A stretch of 14,127 nt of DNA from Bacteroidota bacterium (GTDB lineage: Bacteria > Bacteroidota > Bacteroidia > Bacteroidales > Prolixibacteraceae), in assembly GCA_030691295.1 (NCBI GenBank), contig JAUYEQ010000394.1:1-14127 (forward strand), given 5' to 3'. The notes below the pieces were generated by a model. That model had not been told where the DNA came from and did no database searches. It saw only the letters and a program-made list of their open reading frames with translations. A program made the position numbers and the translations under genes. Every line of letters starts with the position of its first letter. The first letter of the stretch is position 1. This document shows, piece after piece, positions 519-10,985 of this stretch.

Positions 519-3500
519 ATGAACTTATCCGCCTTCAATCAATCTGACTTTCTAAGCGCACTAAAATCATTTTTCAAAGATTTAAAAGTCCCGGTAAATT
601 ACCTTGCAGACGAACCTGATTCTGCAAAAAATATCCTGTCTTCAACATACCGCGATAATGAAGCCTTTCAACTCATGGATGATGTTTACATTCTGGGTAT
701 GATTGACGATGCCGCTTTTGCCGGAAACAAAAGTCCTGACGTATCAAACATCCATTCTGATTACGATGGTATCCTGATTTTTGGAGTAACCCTCAAAAAG
801 CGGAGTAATGGATTATTGCCTACACGTGGACAGTTAGCCGAAATGTCACGGGCGTTCAACCGGGAATTTCATTATACTCCGGTAGTTGTAATTTTTAAAT
901 ACGACGGCCAAATTGCATTTGCCAATACCGAACGACTAAAATATAAACAAGGTTGGCGTGAAGGTGAAAAGTCTGGTAAAGTTTCTGTTTTACGTGATGT
1001 AAATATTCAGTCTCCCCACCGTGGACATCTCGAAATATTGAAAGAATTGGAGATCCCAACATCAGGAAAAAATACTGTTGACTCATTTTCGACTTTATAC
1101 AAGTATTGGCAAGAGGTATTTAGTGTTTCTATCCTGAATAAGAAGTTTTACAACGAATTACAAAACTGGTATTTTTGGGCGATTAAAGAGGTGACTTTCC
1201 CAAATACGCCCAACCGTTTTGACTTTGAAACCAACGAAAAATTCGATGAAGCTATTAAGGAACACAAGGGAAAGAATGTGATTCGATTGCTCACCCGAAT
1301 CCTGTTTATCTGGTTTATCAAAGAGAAAAAATTAATTCCGGAGCAGCTTTTTGATGAAAAGTTCATTGCCAATAAACTGATCAAAGATTTTACACCACAA
1401 AAACCACAGGGCATTTTTGCTACCGGAAAACAAAATAGCCCGTATTACCGTGCCATTTTACAGAACCTATTTTTTGCAACCTTGAATCAGGAAATGGGGA
1501 AGCGTGCTTTTCGTGGCGATGGGCAACATCAAAATGTAACCAACCTGATGCGTTACAAATCGTATTTTAAGGCTCCTGATTATTTTATACAACTCATGGA
1601 AGAGGTTGTGCCGTTTATGAATGGCGGTCTCTTTGAATGTTTAGACAAACCACACCCCACAATAAAAGGAAAACAGGGTGGCGACATCATTATTTATAAC
1701 GATGGGTTCTCAGATCGTGACGATAACCTGTTGGTTGTGCCTGATTACCTGTTTTTTGATGTAGAAGAAGATGTTGATTTAAGCGATGACTTTGGCAATA
1801 AGGTATATAAAAATGCAAAGACCAGAGGATTACTCGAAATTTTACAATCGTATAAATTTACTATTACTGAGAACACCCCAATTGAAGAAGACGTTGCCCT
1901 CGACCCTGAGTTGCTTGGTAAAGTGTTCGAAAACCTGTTGGCAAGTTACAATCCGGAAACAAAAACAACGGCACGAAAACAAACAGGCTCATTCTATACT
2001 CCACGTGAGATTGTGAATTACATGGTGGATGAAAGTCTTGTTGCTTACCTGAAAAGTACCGTAAGCTTCCAGCTTACGGCTGTTCCCGAAGCTTCCAGTG
2101 TATCCGAAGCTTCCAGCTTCGGGATTGACCAAAGCAAGGATGCTTTGGGTACGGTGGGTACTTTCTTTGATCCTGATTCGGAGATTGATATCCACAATGG
2201 CAACCTTCCTCACTGGCATCAAAAAGATGTCTGGTATTTTGTAACCTTCCGTCTTTCCGATTCAATTCCTTTGGATAAAGTTGAAGAATTGAAAAAAGAT
2301 CGTGAAATATGGAAGCTCAAACATAAAGGAAAAACCAAAAATGAATTCACCAAGGACGACTGGAAAGAATACCATCGCTTGTTTTCAGAACGTGTTGAAG
2401 GATGGATGAATGCCAGTTACGGAGCTTGTGTTTTAAGAGATGCTGAAAACGCGAAAATTGTTGCAAATGCCATTAAATACTTTCAAGGTTCAAGGTATGA
2501 GCTTGATGAATGGGTGGTTATGCCAAACCATGTACATATTCTGGTAAAACCATTAAATGAACATACTTTACCACAAATTTGCCATTCGTGGAAGTCGTTT
2601 ACTGCAAATGAAATAAACAAACGAACCGGAAACAATGGGCAATTATGGATGCACGAATCTTATGACCATATAGTTAGAAATGGGCAGGCTTTAGCTGCAA
2701 TTCGAAATTACATCAGACAAAATCCGGCGAAAGCAGGCATCGTATCCGAAGCTTCCAGCTTCGGGATCTCTGTTTCAACTGCTTCCAGCTTCGGGATTAT
2801 TCAAAGCAAGGATGCTTTGGGTACTGCTACTGTTGACCAAAGCAAGGATGCTTTGGATACAATGCTGCACCAACTACTTTCTTACGATACGATAAACCCG
2901 TTTCAGGACAATCCTGCGATACAAAAACAGCTAATCAAAGCATTAGACCAATGCACCATTCTTGATCCCGCTTGTGGTTCAGGAGCATTTCCGATGGGGA
3001 TATTACAAAAAATGGTACATGTGCTACACAAAATTGACCCGAAAAATACCGAATGGGAACAACGGCAAATCGACAGGGTAAACAAAGCAATTGAAAGCCT
3101 TGAAGAGATTGATGATGTTCGTTTTAGAGAGCAAAGTATAAAAGAACTGAAAACACAAATAAAAGATATTGAAGATTCTTTCGAAAACAACGAACTGGAT
3201 TATGGTCGTAAATTGTACTTAATCGAAAACTGTATTTATGGCGTTGACATTCAATCCATCGCAACGCAGATTTCGAAACTCCGGTTTTTTATTTCGTTAA
3301 TTGTTGACCAAAAAATTGACAAGACCAAAGAAAATTTTGGAATACGGCCTTTACCCAACCTCGAAACCAAATTTGTTGCTGCAAATACACTCATTGGTAT
3401 TAATAAACCCAAAGTTGGCGATTTTACAGGGAGTCTTTACGATAATCAGGAGATTAAAAAACTGGAAGCCGAATTAAAAAAGGTACGCCACAAATTGTTT

Positions 3501-4880
3501 AGTGCTAAGGTTCCAGCAACAAAACGTAAACTACGTGAACAAGATAAGGAATTACGAAATCGGATTGCTGATCTTTTAATAAACGATGGCTGGGAAAACC
3601 AAACTGCCCGACAATTGGCAAGTTGGGATCCTTATGACCAAAACGAATCATCACCATTTTTTGACCTCGAATGGATGTTTGATATCAAAGAAGGTTTTGA
3701 TGTGGTGATTGGGAATCCTCCTTATGGAGCAAAGTTTACAGATGAAGAAAAAACGTTGTTTAAAAAGATCTTTAAACATCAAGATTATCAACCTGAAAGT
3801 TTCCTGTTTTTTACTGAAAAAAGTTTTGAATTGTTAAAGTATGGTGCTGTTCTTTCTTTCATAATTCCAAATACATGGCTCACAAATTTAAAGCTAATCA
3901 AAATACGAAAATTCTTAACAGCAGATAATGCAATCCTTAATATATCGCACTATCACAAGTCTGTTTTTGATGCAGTAGTCGATACAGAAGTAGTAATTTT
4001 CAGAAAGGGTTATGTTGCACAAAATCAAGTAAATGTATTTATTCACGAAACAACAGATTCTATACTGAAAATTGCACATAATCAAGATAAATGGAAAGAA
4101 CATAATGGTGAAGTAATTAACATCTTTAGTAACAAGAAAATTGAGAAAGTAATTGATTCAATTAAGAATAATACATATAAAATCAGCGAATTCTGCAATG
4201 TTGTGGTAGGTATGAAACCCTATCAAGTTGGTAAGGGTAAACCAAAACAAGACAGACATTGTGTAGAAAATAGAATATTCGATTCAGAACTAAAAGTAGA
4301 TGATTCGTATAGAAGGCTTCTTAGAGGTAGAGATATTGAAAAGTATAAAATAAACTGGGATGGTAAACGCTGGATAAAATTTGGTGATTGGTTAGCTGAA
4401 CCAAGATATTCAGCAAATTTTGAGGCGATTGAGAAAATTGTACTTAGACAAACTGGTGATTCATTAATAGCTTCCCTTGATACAACACAGTTTATTTGCA
4501 TGAACAATCTACATGTTTTAACAAACAAATCTGATAGTTTATCGCTGAGTTATATATTAGCCCTATTGAATTCTTCGCTACTTAATTTTTACTTTCAATA
4601 TCTTAATCCGGAAATCGGAGAAGCATTAGCAGAAGTAAAAAAGGAAACGGTAGAAAAATTACTGATCAAAGAAACTTCTAATCAAAAACCATTTATAAAC
4701 CTTGTCAATCAAATTCTATCAACAAAAAAAGGCAACCCAAAAGCAAATACCATAAAACTTGAGCGACAGCTTGACGAAATGGTTTTTAAATTATATGAGT
4801 TGACCTACGAAGAAGTAAAGGTAGTGGCCCCTGATTTTTGGTTGAGTGAAGCAGAGTATGAGGCGGTAGAAATTGAATAG
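519..4880 (+). CDS. Eco57I-type (type IIG-like) N6-adenine DNA methyltransferase with a transposase embedded in frame
   Basis: This 1453-residue ORF is a restriction-modification-type adenine methyltransferase that should transfer a methyl group from SAM to adenine in DNA. Residues 1-~490 are an N-terminal region with the family-typical FMNGGLFECLD segment. About 488-502 is the GSFYTPREIVNYM segment. The SAM-binding motif I DPACGSG is at 816-822 and the catalytic NPPY at 1066-1069. The C-terminal ~300 residues look like a TaqI-like target-recognition domain. No clear PD-(D/E)xK nuclease site is visible: the candidate strand near residue 88 (DYDGILIFGVTLKK) lacks the expected acidic-x-Lys. Residues ~513-781 are not methyltransferase but an inserted RAYT transposase with REP hairpins; without them the protein would be ~1185 residues, a normal size for such enzymes. 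The start at 519 lies 3 nt after the previous stop. Whether the chimeric protein folds and methylates cannot be told from sequence. Confidence 0.88.
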   Translation: MNLSAFNQSDFLSALKSFFKDLKVPVNYLADEPDSAKNILSSTYRDNEAFQLMDDVYILGMIDDAAFAGNKSPDVSNIHSDYDGILIFGVTLKKRSNGLLPTRGQLAEMSRAFNREFHYTPVVVIFKYDGQIAFANTERLKYKQGWREGEKSGKVSVLRDVNIQSPHRGHLEILKELEIPTSGKNTVDSFSTLYKYWQEVFSVSILNKKFYNELQNWYFWAIKEVTFPNTPNRFDFETNEKFDEAIKEHKGKNVIRLLTRILFIWFIKEKKLIPEQLFDEKFIANKLIKDFTPQKPQGIFATGKQNSPYYRAILQNLFFATLNQEMGKRAFRGDGQHQNVTNLMRYKSYFKAPDYFIQLMEEVVPFMNGGLFECLDKPHPTIKGKQGGDIIIYNDGFSDRDDNLLVVPDYLFFDVEEDVDLSDDFGNKVYKNAKTRGLLEILQSYKFTITENTPIEEDVALDPELLGKVFENLLASYNPETKTTARKQTGSFYTPREIVNYMVDESLVAYLKSTVSFQLTAVPEASSVSEASSFGIDQSKDALGTVGTFFDPDSEIDIHNGNLPHWHQKDVWYFVTFRLSDSIPLDKVEELKKDREIWKLKHKGKTKNEFTKDDWKEYHRLFSERVEGWMNASYGACVLRDAENAKIVANAIKYFQGSRYELDEWVVMPNHVHILVKPLNEHTLPQICHSWKSFTANEINKRTGNNGQLWMHESYDHIVRNGQALAAIRNYIRQNPAKAGIVSEASSFGISVSTASSFGIIQSKDALGTATVDQSKDALDTMLHQLLSYDTINPFQDNPAIQKQLIKALDQCTILDPACGSGAFPMGILQKMVHVLHKIDPKNTEWEQRQIDRVNKAIESLEEIDDVRFREQSIKELKTQIKDIEDSFENNELDYGRKLYLIENCIYGVDIQSIATQISKLRFFISLIVDQKIDKTKENFGIRPLPNLETKFVAANTLIGINKPKVGDFTGSLYDNQEIKKLEAELKKVRHKLFSAKVPATKRKLREQDKELRNRIADLLINDGWENQTARQLASWDPYDQNESSPFFDLEWMFDIKEGFDVVIGNPPYGAKFTDEEKTLFKKIFKHQDYQPESFLFFTEKSFELLKYGAVLSFIIPNTWLTNLKLIKIRKFLTADNAILNISHYHKSVFDAVVDTEVVIFRKGYVAQNQVNVFIHETTDSILKIAHNQDKWKEHNGEVINIFSNKKIEKVIDSIKNNTYKISEFCNVVVGMKPYQVGKGKPKQDRHCVENRIFDSELKVDDSYRRLLRGRDIEKYKINWDGKRWIKFGDWLAEPRYSANFEAIEKIVLRQTGDSLIASLDTTQFICMNNLHVLTNKSDSLSLSYILALLNSSLLNFYFQYLNPEIGEALAEVKKETVEKLLIKETSNQKPFINLVNQILSTKKGNPKANTIKLERQLDEMVFKLYELTYEEVKVVAPDFWLSEAEYEAVEIE
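2056..2152 (+). repeat. Left REP cluster (two complete and one truncated + hairpin, one - hairpin)
   Basis: Unit 1 has foot GTAC at 2056-2059, arms 2060-2067 and 2071-2078 (CGTAAGCT / AGCTTACG), and loop TCC. A truncated unit at 2086-2098 keeps only the left arm and loop. Unit 2 has foot GTAT at 2100-2103, arms 2104-2111 and 2115-2122 (CCGAAGCT / AGCTTCGG), and loop TCC. Unit 3 is in the opposite orientation, with arms 2129-2136 and 2141-2148 (CCAAAGCA / TGCTTTGG), loop AGGA, and GTAC foot at 2149-2152. Unit 3 read on the minus strand has the same layout: GTAC, arm, TCCT loop, arm. In the host frame the units read as SEASSFGI and QSKDALGT. Confidence 0.87.
2154..2742 (+). other. RAYT domain (REP-associated tyrosine transposase, TnpA_REP / Y1 HUH family) within the methyltransferase ORF
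   Basis: RAYTs are single-domain Y1 nucleases related to the IS200/IS605 transposases; they nick and rejoin single-stranded REP hairpins. All family marks are present. The N-terminal LPHWHQ and YFVTFRL segments lie near host residues 560-575. The HxH metal site is in VMPNHVHILV, with His671 and His673. The KSFTANEIN segment and a LWMHESYDHIVR segment follow. The C-terminal NYIRQNPAKAG holds the presumed catalytic Tyr731. Length (~190 residues) is normal. The position where relatives often have an initiator Met before FDPDxE is here FFDPDSE, with no ATG. The nearest in-frame alternative start is a GTG at 2154, which lies right behind a REP hairpin. The transposase may therefore be made only as part of the long fusion, or from that GTG. 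The catalytic residues look intact, so activity is possible. Confidence 0.9.
2742..2860 (+). repeat. Right REP cluster (one complete and one degraded + hairpin, two - hairpins)
   Basis: The first + unit has GTAT at 2742-2745 and arms 2746-2753 and 2757-2764 around TCC, identical to left unit 2. A second + copy at 2781-2795 keeps only GCT, the loop and the right arm; its left arm has decayed to CAACT. The first - unit has arms 2802-2808 and 2813-2819 (outer pair weakened by a C-to-T change), with GTAC at 2821-2824. The second - unit has arms 2837-2844 and 2849-2856, with ATAC at 2857-2860, which is GTAT on the minus strand. The order is + units then - units, the same as in the left cluster. 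Confidence 0.87.
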
Positions 4881-4962: not shown

Positions 4963-5970
4963 ATGGATAAAGATTTAACAAATTCAGGAATTGAGCGGCA
5001 AAATATACTGAATAACAAATATGCCCTCAAACGCATTCAGGAATATATTGGGTTTGAAGGAATGTTATTTGAAGGAGAATACCGTTTTACAAAAAAAATG
5101 ATAGCCGATTTTTTTCAAGTCGATACATCAACTATCGAAAGGTATTTAAGCTCCCACGAATCTGAAATAAAACACAACGGATATATTTTAAGTAAGGGTA
5201 AACAACTGAAAGAATTCAAGTTGCAATTTGGTCACCTCATTGATAAGGCGACCAAAACAACTTCATTGGGTTTGTTTAATTTTCGTTCGTTCCTTAATCT
5301 TGCCATGTTGCTCAAAGAAAGTGAAAATGCTCAATTGCTTCGGAGCAAGATGCTTGATATTGTGCTTGATACGATAAATCAGCGAACCGGAGGCGGAACC
5401 AAATTCATCAATCGTCGGGATGCAAACTATTTACCTGCTGCAATGAAGGAGAGTAAATACCGGAAAGATTTCACCTCTGCATTAAGTCGCTATGTGAACA
5501 TGGATAACTACAAATATTCCCTCTTTACTGATCGGATTTATCAGAGTATTTTTAAAGAGAATGCCAAAGAATACAAGCAAATTTTAAAATTAGCTGAAGA
5601 TGACAACGCCCGAGATACAATGTATGCTGAGGTTTTAAACAGTATTGCCTCATTCGAAACCGGTCTGGCTTACGAGATCGGGAAGCGTAGCAAAGAACTT
5701 GGTCGAAAGCTCGAAAAAGAGGAAGTTGATCAACTATTTATTGATTTCGCAAAACACCCGCAACAACATCCATATATTGAAGATGCTCGGTTTAAGATGG
5801 CATCACGCGATCTGCATTTTCGCGATGCACTGCATTTAAAACTTGAAGAGTATATTCAATCCGTTTCTCCTTCTGACTTTGAACGTTTCCTTGGAGAACA
5901 AGGAGTAAGTTTTGAAAAACAACTTGATGATGTTGCCGAAGTGATGAAACGTCTAAAAGAAAGCGAATAA
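4963..5970 (+). CDS. DNA-binding protein, RhuM-like, probable partner of the Doc toxin
   Basis: This is a 335-residue soluble protein. Residues ~40-63 (RFTKKMIADFFQVDTSTIERYL) read as a helix-turn-helix, with a short basic stretch after it. The middle part contains RSFLNLAMLL and LRSKMLDIVLD, a layout that recalls RhuM/Bro-type proteins. The C-terminal ~130 residues are strongly helical and charged. I place it near the RhuM-like DNA-binding proteins often encoded beside Fic/Doc proteins; the exact family is uncertain. The stop codon overlaps the ATG of the Doc gene by one base (TAATG), a sign of translational coupling, so it is likely the antitoxin, the regulator, or both. The start at 4963 is the first ATG after an in-frame stop at 4941. 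It lies 82 bp after the methyltransferase in the same direction, so it may be read from the same transcript. Confidence 0.6.
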   Translation: MDKDLTNSGIERQNILNNKYALKRIQEYIGFEGMLFEGEYRFTKKMIADFFQVDTSTIERYLSSHESEIKHNGYILSKGKQLKEFKLQFGHLIDKATKTTSLGLFNFRSFLNLAMLLKESENAQLLRSKMLDIVLDTINQRTGGGTKFINRRDANYLPAAMKESKYRKDFTSALSRYVNMDNYKYSLFTDRIYQSIFKENAKEYKQILKLAEDDNARDTMYAEVLNSIASFETGLAYEIGKRSKELGRKLEKEEVDQLFIDFAKHPQQHPYIEDARFKMASRDLHFRDALHLKLEEYIQSVSPSDFERFLGEQGVSFEKQLDDVAEVMKRLKESE

Positions 5971-6431
5971 TGGATTGTATTTATTTCAAGGATATCAATG
6001 AAGTCATTGCCATTCATCAAAAAACAATTGAGGTAAGCGGCGGCGGTGCGGATGGAATAATCAATCTAAATTCATTGGATTGCGCTCTGGAACAAATCCA
6101 AAACGACATGTATTATCCTGAATTTGAAGATAAATTGACACACCTTTTTTGGGTAGCCAATAAAAGTCACGGTTTTCAGGATGGAAATAAAAGAATTGCA
6201 ATCACGATTTGTGGCATGTTCCTGTTTAAAAACGGTTTTATGGGTGTAGTAAAAGATTTCATGTTTAAAATGGAATCCATCAGTTATCATGTTGCTGCCG
6301 GAAATATCGAAAAAGAATTGCTCCACGAAGTAATCACTTCTATTCTTTATGAAGAAGATTATAGCGAACCGCTCAAATTGAAACTTATGGAAGCATTTTC
6401 AAAAAATCTAATAGACGATGAGGAATATTGA
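5970..6431 (+). CDS. doc: Death-on-curing (Doc) family toxin, Fic fold
   Basis: This 153-residue protein carries the signature loop HGFQDGNKR at residues 67-75. It matches the Doc form of the Fic motif (HxFxDxNKR) rather than the classical AMPylating form HxFxxGNGR: His67 is the catalytic base, Asp71 the metal ligand, and Asn73, Lys74 and Arg75 contact phosphate. The N-terminal part (EVIAIHQKTIEVSGG, then a Leu-rich helix) is also typical of Doc. Phage P1 Doc phosphorylates elongation factor Tu with ATP; the same target here is only an inference. The gene is coupled by a one-base overlap to the DNA-binding gene before it. Together they look like a toxin-antitoxin pair linked to the methyltransferase. 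Length is slightly above the usual 120-150 residues owing to an acidic C-terminal tail. Confidence 0.82.
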   Translation: MDCIYFKDINEVIAIHQKTIEVSGGGADGIINLNSLDCALEQIQNDMYYPEFEDKLTHLFWVANKSHGFQDGNKRIAITICGMFLFKNGFMGVVKDFMFKMESISYHVAAGNIEKELLHEVITSILYEEDYSEPLKLKLMEAFSKNLIDDEEY

Positions 6432-9669: not shown

Positions 9670-10031
9670 TGTCAGGATTTTAATTCGCTGGCTAAATTAC
9701 TAAAAGCAATTTGAAGAGGAACTGATTTTTTACTGCATTCCGGCATGCTTCTCAATCGCAAAAAATCAATTGGAGCCCCATCCCCAACCCTTCCCCGAGA
9801 GGGAAGGGAGCAGGTCGTCAATGTTTCAAAAAGCATTTTGTTTGTCGAATCCTTTTTGGCAACCCTTAAAAACTGTTGAAAGTATAATGTTCCTTCTTTG
9901 CTGGAAAGCTCGAGATAACTGGGGTATGGCGCGGAAAATTTGATAACTTTGGCAATCAGCAAACATATTTTGCTTTATTTTGGAATCCAAGCGAATTTAT
10001 TTTTAAGGACTTAATTTTTTATTTCAGTCTG
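9670..10031. promoter_or_regulatory. Divergent intergenic region between CoA ligase and universal stress gene
   Basis: Both genes start from this 362-bp region, so it must hold their promoters. On the + strand TAACTTTG at 9944-9951 fits the Bacteroidota -7 consensus TAnnTTTG, but no TTTG lies at the proper distance upstream, so it is only a candidate. A 96-codon minus-strand frame (9672-9962) crosses the C-rich hairpin repeat at 9774-9811. Part of its translation is simply that repeat, and I do not believe it is a gene. Confidence 0.45.
9774..9811. repeat. C-rich intergenic hairpin repeat, copy 1
   Basis: The unit starts GAGCCCC, continues with CCCCAACCC, and ends in a perfect 8-bp hairpin: CCCTTCCC (9788-9795) and GGGAAGGG (9801-9808) around a 5-base loop. 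Copies at 10843-10878 and, inverted, at 10986-11018 share the plan. It lies upstream of two divergent genes, so it is not acting as a simple terminator here. Confidence 0.7.
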
Positions 10032-10841
10032 ATGCCGAACAATCAGGAACAAAAAATAATTGCAATTTGTGATTTTTCAGAGCGAATGAAAGAAGTCATT
10101 GTGCACGCGGCACGCATGGCCGGCATTCTGAGAAAGGAACTTTGCCTGACAGTTCTCTGGCAAAATCAGGTTCAGAAAATTCAGCTTCAGGAGAAAATAA
10201 TGCTAACGGTACAAACCCTGAAATCAAATCTTCCCAACATGCAGATTTCATGGTTACTCCTTCAGAAATCGTTGTACAACAACATGGAGAAACTGGTGGA
10301 CGATTACAGTGCGGTTTTGGTAGTGCTGCATCAGACCGACATTAACTGGGCATTAAAAGCTTTCCAGCAGAGCAGTATCGCATTTCTTTTTGTTAACGGT
10401 GATTCTCCTGAATTCTTAAGTTACAAAAATGTGCTTGTTCCGGTCGATTACCGCAAGGCTTCAAAAGAAACTTCGCTTTGGGCATCGTATTTTGGCAGGT
10501 TCAACCGCTCGCAGGTTCAATTGATCTATGCGCGGGAGACGAATAAAGAAGATGCTGCCAGATTAATGAGAAACCTTGAATTTTTTAAAAAATTTCTATC
10601 GAGCCTGAATGTCCGTCATCATGAAACTGCGGGAAAGTCATCGAGTTGGGGAATATGCAACGAAACGCTTGGTATTGCCAATGAGTGGAAAGGCGATGTA
10701 ATGATATTTTCAGGGAGCAGCTCCATTTCACTGATTGATTTGCTGATCGGGCTTCCTGAGAAAAAATTAATCTTAAAAGCGGGCAATTTGCCGGTTTTGA
10801 TGATCAATCCGAGAAAAGACAGTTGTGTGCTGTGCGATTGA
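10032..10841 (+). CDS. Universal stress protein family, tandem UspA domains
   Basis: This is a 269-residue cytoplasmic protein of two diverged Usp domains. The first spans about residues 6-125 (KIIAICDFSERMKEVIVHAA). The second starts with KNVLVPVDYRKASKETS near residue 137, which has the V-P-V-D strand and following helix typical of Usp. Near the end, MIFSGSSSISLIDLLIG followed by LPVLMINP sits where ATP-binding members have the G-2x-G-9x-G(S/T) loop, but the glycine spacing is not kept, so ATP binding is doubtful. Usp proteins of this tandem type are common in Bacteroidota and usually link to starvation or redox stress; no specific role can be given. It runs divergently from the CoA ligase and convergently with the DPP11 gene. 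Confidence 0.75.
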   Translation: MPNNQEQKIIAICDFSERMKEVIVHAARMAGILRKELCLTVLWQNQVQKIQLQEKIMLTVQTLKSNLPNMQISWLLLQKSLYNNMEKLVDDYSAVLVVLHQTDINWALKAFQQSSIAFLFVNGDSPEFLSYKNVLVPVDYRKASKETSLWASYFGRFNRSQVQLIYARETNKEDAARLMRNLEFFKKFLSSLNVRHHETAGKSSSWGICNETLGIANEWKGDVMIFSGSSSISLIDLLIGLPEKKLILKAGNLPVLMINPRKDSCVLCD

Positions 10842-10842
10842 T

Positions 10843-10878
10843 AAGCCCCACCCAAACCCTCCCCAAAAGGGAGGGCTT
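10843..10878 (+). terminator. C-rich intergenic hairpin repeat, copy 2, probable terminator of the stress gene
   Basis: It begins two bases after the stop codon of the stress gene. CCCTCCC (10857-10863) pairs with GGGAGGG (10869-10875) around a 5-base loop, and outer AAGCCC can pair with GGGCTT. A short T run (cttta) follows, too weak for a classical intrinsic terminator. It is the same repeat family as 9774-9811. Confidence 0.55.
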
Positions 10879-10985
10879 TAAAAAGCAATATGAACGGATA
10901 GTAGCTTCTAAAGAATCGCTTTTAAGTTTTTTGTTCGGATGGGGAAATAATTATTGGCTGAACAAATTTTATTAGGGCAATTTTT

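Follow-up and report, generated by a model that had tools for sequence, protein, structure and literature searches.

The stretch of DNA analysed here, called the window, comprises 14,127 nt of contig JAUYEQ010000394.1 (GCA_030691295.1). An open reading frame (ORF) of 1453 codons was found on its forward strand at 519..4880, which forms a single open frame without an internal stop and predicts a protein of 167.7 kDa. The ORF listing, Pfam and PADLOC identified it as an Eco57I/type IIG-like methylase. The Pfam scan matched Eco57I at residues 904–1150 and TaqI_C at residues 1267–1381 (PF07669 and PF12950), as well as N6_Mtase, and the top PADLOC match was REase_MTase_IIG (7.5e-57). The methylase motifs and the TaqI-like specificity domain expected of a type IIG enzyme are present. 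The catalytic motifs DPACGSG (residues 816–822; 2964–2984) and NPPY (residues 1066–1069; 3714–3725) lie on the forward strand at 2964..3725, which is 3' of an insert across which the frame continues. The host segment 5' of the insert (1992..2054, +), FYTPREIV...VDESLVAYLK, is conserved in three aligned empty alleles. Residues 1–500, where an N-terminal nuclease would be sought, gave no Pfam match at E 0.01, and no intein domain was among the matches of the ORF at that threshold. At 4963-6431, 3' of the methylase, PADLOC gave the candidate pair PDC-M59A/PDC-M59B, the second with a Fic/Doc domain above the cut-off, which may be a defence or toxin-antitoxin pair. Two short ORFs on the reverse strand (9672-9962 and 10619-10888) encode peptides like LPSRGRVGDG and LPFGEGLGG, which we take to resemble translated palindromic repeats.

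The insert is a nested REPtron, consisting of REPs, a RAYT and REPs again, which occupies 805 nt at 2056..2860 (+), stop-free in the host frame, between the host peptides VDESLVAYLK and TMLHQLLSY. Its ends are those of the outermost REPs: GTAC starts at 2056, and GATAC finishes at 2860. A sequence-only reading of this DNA had described a complete REPtron within the 1453-codon methylase ORF, with an intact-looking RAYT between hairpins, and this description was borne out; its bounds proved exact to the base, and its residue range of 513–781 was also right. The Y1/HUH domain is flanked on both sides by clear REPs, six in all with three in each orientation, together with one or more worn copies. 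On the 5' side, REP 1 (2056..2079, +) consists of GTAC and a hairpin with a 9-bp stem and is translated as KSTVSFQLTA, REP 2 (2100..2122, +) consists of GTAT and a hairpin (VSEASSFG), and the inverted REP 3 (2129..2152, −) has a GGGTAC end (QSKDALGT). The RAYT (Y1/HUH) domain follows at 2160..2741 (+; residues 548–741). On its 3' side lie REP 4 (2742..2764, +), which has the same hairpin as REP 2, is placed 642 nt (214 codons) 3' of it and also has a terminator-like score; a worn forward REP (2778..2797, +); the inverted REP 5 (2802..2824, −), 672 nt (224 codons) from REP 3; and the inverted REP 6 (2837..2860, −), whose terminal GGATAC is the right end of the element. The direct-repeat spacings among the hairpins (642, 672 and 36 nt) are each a multiple of three.

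The RAYT retains its catalytic motifs, HxH in NHVHIL (residues 670–675; 2526–2543) and Tyr in NYIRQNP (residues 730–736; 2706–2726), and its first in-frame ATG is at 2406. Y1_Tnp (PF01797) matched residues 653–735 at 35.7 bits, which exceeds the cut-off of 23. The best NCBIfam match was REP_Tyr_transpos at residues 639–748, which gave 74.9 bits when the whole fused ORF was scored, below the cut-off of 80. The best match by sequence among solved structures was 4er8 (E 1.6e-4). As expected of a REPtron, hairpins in both orientations were observed on both sides of the RAYT; a GTAG head was absent from REPs in the window, whose heads are GTAC or GTAT.

Single-stranded DNA folding of the two insert flanks gave z = −6.0 and −4.1 against 200 shuffles, so that both form much more stable folds than the shuffled sequences. 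In a comparison of 18 REPs from the window and seven loci, 88.9% of the stem cells were paired, versus 71.3% after shuffling and 21–46% when the helix was slid, a control that is biased toward the helix because the helix was derived from the same sequences. Double changes in the stems amounted to 33, versus 12.0 in the shuffled set. These 18 remained of 30 hairpins after the removal of four with 3-base loops that belong to the window, four of L090 and four of L089 that are near-copies. On this comparison, REPs with covarying stems lie on both sides of the RAYT.

Wide dispersal is a mark of classic REPs. The exact hairpins of the window were found nowhere else in its genome and are confined to the methylase gene, and wide dispersal was likewise not seen in G132, G191, G297, G446 and G407, each searched with one hairpin pattern. 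All five pattern matches in G132 lie within 128 bases adjoining the nested RAYT, and the six in G191 lie within 3.5 kb. G297 has ten, eight of them on the host's contig and six of these inside the host frame; G446 has five, three on the host's contig, and G407 has one. These results bear on the proposal of the sequence-only reading that a recent mobilisation was "caught in the act", which would mean that a local REPtron moved once, and recently, into the gene. Hairpin cores that are identical among several copies in the gene fit this proposal, as does an empty homologue (L022) that is 92% alike over the N part. Against it, the window's genome holds neither a second near-identical RAYT nor dispersed exact REPs, so that movement was not seen; its best other RAYT match has 35% identity, the nearest RAYT in the RAYT tree is 70% alike, and same-site inserts exist in many distant hosts. 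Transposition from a local donor was hence rejected, and a recent single mobilisation is considered very improbable.

Nested RAYTs in other proteins and genomes

A search of long proteins with words from the RAYT part alone gave 549 matches, of which the 120 listed were studied. By the Pfam column or by motif, their hosts are 95 IIG/N6 methylases, 21 HsdR proteins, three DUF1156 proteins and one methionine synthase (MetH), which means that 116 of 120 are IIG/N6 methylases or HsdR. The DUF1156 proteins are methylase-like, as a relative (L122) has a MethyltransfD12 match below the cut-off. Among the matches listed, the RAYTs are flanked by repeat peptides, for example SIPADG/SKDAS, SEASSFG/SKDALGT or VAGASSS/ELEAPAT, and some of the proteins are annotated "transposase" or "partial". 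Two RAYTs in one long protein were observed in P0062, P0077, P0093 and P0101 (methionine synthase and DUF1156 proteins).

In 149 related genomes, the six best matches besides the window's own were located in frames of 1019, 1270, 1381, 212, 1285 and 1313 codons, and one of the 27 weaker matches (to E 1e-10) was in a long frame (881 codons). Across 395 genomes from the phylum, frames of 468 (at a contig edge) to 1332 codons contained the seven best matches, and all 50 weaker matches (to E 1e-20) were in frames of 144–272 codons. The closest RAYTs to that of the window are thus almost all in frames of 468–1381 codons, and the remoter ones are almost all alone. Thirteen nested matches from whole genomes reside in Eco57I-type genes (three settings), HsdR (two places) and DUF1156 hosts (two places). 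Eleven of these hosts were scanned, ten being called by Pfam and L117 by its flanks; the hosts of L118 and L123 were called because they share 99% and 88% identity with scanned hosts. Recurrence in more than 100 other long proteins suggests an established lifestyle of such elements rather than a one-off accident.

The same arrangement in independent assemblies answered the question of misassembly raised by the sequence-only reading. The window's genome is a 721-contig draft, which could favor an assembly or annotation artefact; however, nested RAYTs occur in many independent assemblies, including that of P0064 (source-named Flavobacterium branchiophilum ATCC 35035; longest contig 3.79 Mb), and the one-contig genome G191 carries one in a DUF1156 host. 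An artefact is hardly credible as an explanation.

The window's genome holds a second nested RAYT (L006 or L160, G000:C523), which is unrelated to the first but behaves in the same way; it lies immediately ahead of motif IV in a different gene of the Eco57I type. In related genomes, relatives of this RAYT were located at 22 further gene places, 16 of them in frames of at least 1133 codons, three in frames of 569–883 codons and three in short frames. The same host segment precedes the RAYT in 12 of 12 loci read, and the motif IV segment follows in ten, the two exceptions being L169, which is frame-shifted, and L174, which was read only in part. This lineage keeps one site across genera. Its hairpin, a 20-base palindrome, is restricted in the window's genome to its own contig and the L006 gene.

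Filled and empty linkers, and the histories of host and RAYT

The linker position of the insert in the window's host is called site A. A contig scan confirmed with tblastn, for which an open frame was unnecessary, showed that the host segments on either side of the insert also enclose a RAYT in L009, L010, L011 and L047. In L019, a same-site RAYT was observed at which the locus ends within the RAYT; the RAYT identity of these five is 59–69%. A different RAYT is present at the same site in L015, with masked N in the insert. Zero stops or frame changes were found in all six. Only a short linker is present in L022, L012, L016, L017, L018 and L020. Of 121, the best 80 yielded the 78 distinct loci used here. 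A RAYT word was among the six scan words, and the listed proteins were selected for a RAYT, so that the set is biased toward inserts and we therefore give no prevalence figure.

A host tree was constructed from 143 of 199 candidate rows (the window, 120 proteins and 78 loci), after 33 without the N motif, ten without the C motif, nine too short and four without an ORF were dropped. Genes with and without the insert both exist, as the sequence-only reading had suggested looking for: 81 of the 143 rows have a RAYT at site A, 59 are empty and three have a DUF559 nuclease. P0084 and P0086 were scored as empty at this site, although each has a RAYT elsewhere. The linker measures 49–97 aa in the 59 empty rows and 313 aa in the window. 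A "stable chimera" made as one protein, which that reading had offered as its other option, is too simple a description because close homologues have no insert or a different one. In the C part of the closest empty homologue (L022:7594-9623), the first 167 residues are 93% alike and the remainder 42%, with a one-base frame offset where the identity drops; this may reflect an exchanged specificity half, a frameshift or a sequencing error.

REP hairpins were found in 8 of the 59 empty linkers and in 9 of 59 control stretches. Solo-REP scars were hence rejected as a general feature of empty sites. L017, L045 and L054 look like single cases of such a scar.

On the host tree, RAYT presence requires at least 29 changes at site A, of which 23 are forced by starred, well-supported branches; shuffled labels gave 46.8. 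All trees were made with FastTree only, and many of their forks are weak. P0030, which has a RAYT, is 93.7% alike over 685 residues to L038, which is empty. Host and RAYT identities were compared for 3081 pairs of 79 site-A rows and gave a Spearman correlation of 0.50. The RAYTs are more alike than the hosts in 2912 of the 3081 pairs, which therefore indicates slower RAYT evolution as a rule, and this may explain part of the signal in which distant hosts carry similar RAYTs. Individual pairs nevertheless clash in both directions, P0019 and L009 with the RAYTs more alike (host 53%, RAYT 82%) and P0017 and P0041 with the hosts more alike (host 89%, RAYT 71%). RAYTs less alike than their hosts were also obtained for HsdR and DUF1156 proteins, namely L118/L119 (HsdR; host 99%, RAYT 93%), L122/L123 (host 88%, RAYT 69%) and L092/L093 (host 85%, RAYT 70%), which therefore speaks for separate histories. 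The synonymous distance between L118 and L119 is 0.055 for the host and 0.216 for the RAYT, four times as much, as if the RAYT had been replaced after the hosts diverged.

Mapping of host class on the RAYT tree gave 36 changes, with a minimum of 5 and a shuffled mean of 111. This clustering fits long residence and some exchange better than free jumping. A branch shared with HsdR-nested RAYTs holds 33 of 41 stand-alone RAYTs, which were picked by eye from 120 listed on contigs of at least about 9 kb (at least P0160, at 9.9 kb, was missed). Taken together, the trees and identities are consistent with long residence accompanied by gain, loss and exchange, with which transposition and homologous recombination are both compatible.

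These data bear on whether the insert is an old domain, that is, whether a single insertion of a RAYT into the linker of an ancestral IIG enzyme gave rise to an ordinary accessory domain, which many lineages then lost by deletion. Most site-A inserts share the boundary YLKS.VS and its phase, and 57 of 81 show that phase only (peptide patterns); this, the correlation of host and RAYT identities, purifying selection on the RAYT and the single site of the L006 type would all fit such an origin. Its difficulty is that the histories of RAYT and host clash in both directions, left-boundary REPs are translated in at least two phases (peptide patterns), and the same RAYT clade is found in HsdR, with wider kin in DUF1156 proteins and MetH. 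The sequence-only reading held that the same insert at large phylogenetic distance would mean an old normal domain; such distant same-site inserts were indeed found, but the empty sister of P0030 shows that the insert is no fixed domain. An old domain is thus regarded as unlikely.

Site A is also used by another enzyme. In L013, L023 and L061, a DUF559 nuclease is located there between other repeat-coded peptides. DUF559 gave 155 long-protein matches, of which 120 were listed (P0241-P0360); these nucleases are nested in frame between palindrome-coded peptides such as SPPAKGE, TPPLKGGE and similar ones (seven flanks), and their hosts are IIG, ISP, HsdM and HsdS proteins. Metabolic or essential hosts among the matches listed are leucyl-tRNA synthetase (4), methylmalonyl-CoA mutase (4), methionine synthase (1) and urocanase (1). 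If the RAYT served the enzyme, its HUH nuclease would add a restriction or defence function for which the pair is kept. The retained catalytic residues are compatible with this, and so is the preponderance of restriction-modification hosts, both in the 120 proteins listed and in the 13 whole-genome matches. Yet the presence of the RAYT is patchy among close relatives, its site varies between hosts, DUF559 takes the same site, and a defence role is unlikely for the DUF559 inserts of metabolic enzymes and leucyl-tRNA synthetase. We consider this explanation more doubtful still than that of an old domain.

Probable translation of the insert and selection on the RAYT

No in-frame ATG is present in the insert ahead of residue 630, and the only promoter-like site, on the opposite strand, compares with 1.8 in shuffles. 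An independent start of the RAYT was rejected on these grounds. A shorter product could begin at the ATG of host M502 just 5' of the insert or at the GTG at 2154, and the terminator-like REP 4 could lower read-through. In 121 nested proteins, a Met within 15 residues ahead of the RAYT was found in 6 and was lacking in 106, the other 9 being unscored. However, 25 of 35 scored stand-alone RAYTs also have no nearby Met, their starts lying further upstream, and the missing Met is weakened from a proof of host-driven expression to a weak sign of host dependence because stand-alone RAYTs mostly do without it too. Fewer than 40 residues precede the RAYT in 4 of 121 proteins (the 120 listed and the window), and in none do fewer than 40 follow it. 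Expression of the RAYT through the host frame is likely.

Of 126 nested domains, 123 match the HxH pattern and 124 match a loose Tyr pattern; one HxH miss and one Tyr miss are halves of the RAYT of P0029, which another insert divides in two. For L118, L119 and L120, three related HsdR genes that carry the RAYT at one site, dN/dS of the RAYT was 0.19, 0.13 and 0.11, and that of the host was 0.13 and 0.10 for two overlapping pairs. The values for the RAYTs of L092/L093/L095 and L122/L123 were excluded, as their synonymous sites are saturated. Purifying selection on the nested RAYT is hence evident from the substitutions in this one set of three related genes. Broken nested copies were also observed: the HsdR frame at L095:1336-3540 stops 54 codons past the RAYT, beside intact hosts, and in G048 the copy is split across two frames.

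Proposed lifestyle and comparison with known elements

Judged by its sequence, the element is nested in frame, keeps its catalytic residues, is recurrently present and absent at one site, has a history that clashes with that of its hosts, and resides in several host families. We propose, with a probability of roughly 70%, that it belongs to a REPtron lineage adapted to life as a translated insert in tolerant linkers, for which the inside of genes would be the usual home and the host gene the means of expression. In this proposal, an element made of REPs with GTAY hairpins, a RAYT without a stop or a head ATG, and REPs again would sit in the linker of a restriction-modification protein with its phase open throughout. 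Translation of the host would run through the insert and yield one polypeptide of about 168 kDa, in which the methylase acquires an extra HUH nuclease domain joined by REP-encoded peptides. The position of the linker between conserved parts would make this tolerable to the host. For the element, the gain would be expression that needs no promoter within it, together with transport on horizontally spreading genes. It may move when the RAYT cuts its own REPs as single strands, or be moved by homologous recombination. The fusion would be made and not processed, with both activities working. The dispensability, multi-domain build and mobility of restriction-modification proteins may account for their prevalence among the hosts. 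Because the direct repeats are spaced by whole codons (642, 672 and 36 nt), a REP–REP deletion could remove the RAYT and leave the host frame intact.

A lineage that gains, loses and swaps places in restriction-modification frames would have a lifestyle between those of an insertion sequence and an intein, and would show a route to transposase expression without a promoter. Natural allele pairs with and without the insert make the question of RAYT function testable. On a wider scale, at somewhat less than even odds, the RAYT and DUF559 inserts may represent a general class of autonomous mobile elements that are transparent to translation. Its members would carry a RAYT or DUF559 nuclease gene with palindromic repeat ends, reside stop-free and permanently in the frames of large proteins, even the essential leucyl-tRNA synthetase, be made as an unspliced domain of the host, and relocate among favored linkers in unrelated genes.

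The general view of RAYTs is that they are domesticated, occur in single copy and lie outside genes. The window element shares with known RAYTs and REPtrons (PF01797, NF047646; TnpA-REP of PDB 4er8) the HUH and Tyr motifs and the REP hairpins on both sides in both orientations. It differs in that its RAYT has no stop codon and lies within the frame of a host gene, its REP heads are GTAC/GTAT instead of GTAG, and its exact REPs are undispersed. IS200/IS605 TnpA belongs to the same Y1 family, but the match to NF033573 is weak (26.5 bits against a cut-off of 55), and the hairpin array and habitat of the window element are different. Inteins with homing endonucleases are a known case of a nuclease in frame within a host protein. 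Unlike these, the product of the window is expected to be an unspliced fusion, in keeping with the Pfam result for intein domains described above.

The sequence-only reading regarded the arrangement as undescribed, and a report of a complete RAYT in frame inside another gene was indeed not found in the literature searched. The same-linker inserts in many distant homologues show that the arrangement recurs. Among known elements, intragenic REPs and Rickettsia palindromic elements (RPE) are palindromes translated in frame within functional genes, of up to 82 aa (PMC3733652). Those are hairpin repeats for which the sections consulted mention no enzyme gene in the host frame, whereas a whole unit including the RAYT is inserted here. 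In a large survey of Y1 enzymes, unexpectedly long proteins were excluded as gene fusions or annotation errors (PMC6006769). Annotators should hence be cautious, as nested-RAYT proteins may carry the names "transposase" or "partial". The same survey describes REPs inserted into RAYTs of subclass 2.4 (PMC6006769); the L006-type RAYT, with a repeat peptide in its interior, resembles these and is a candidate member. Repeat peptides inside the nested RAYT itself, splitting it, were observed in P0029, L173, L174 and others.
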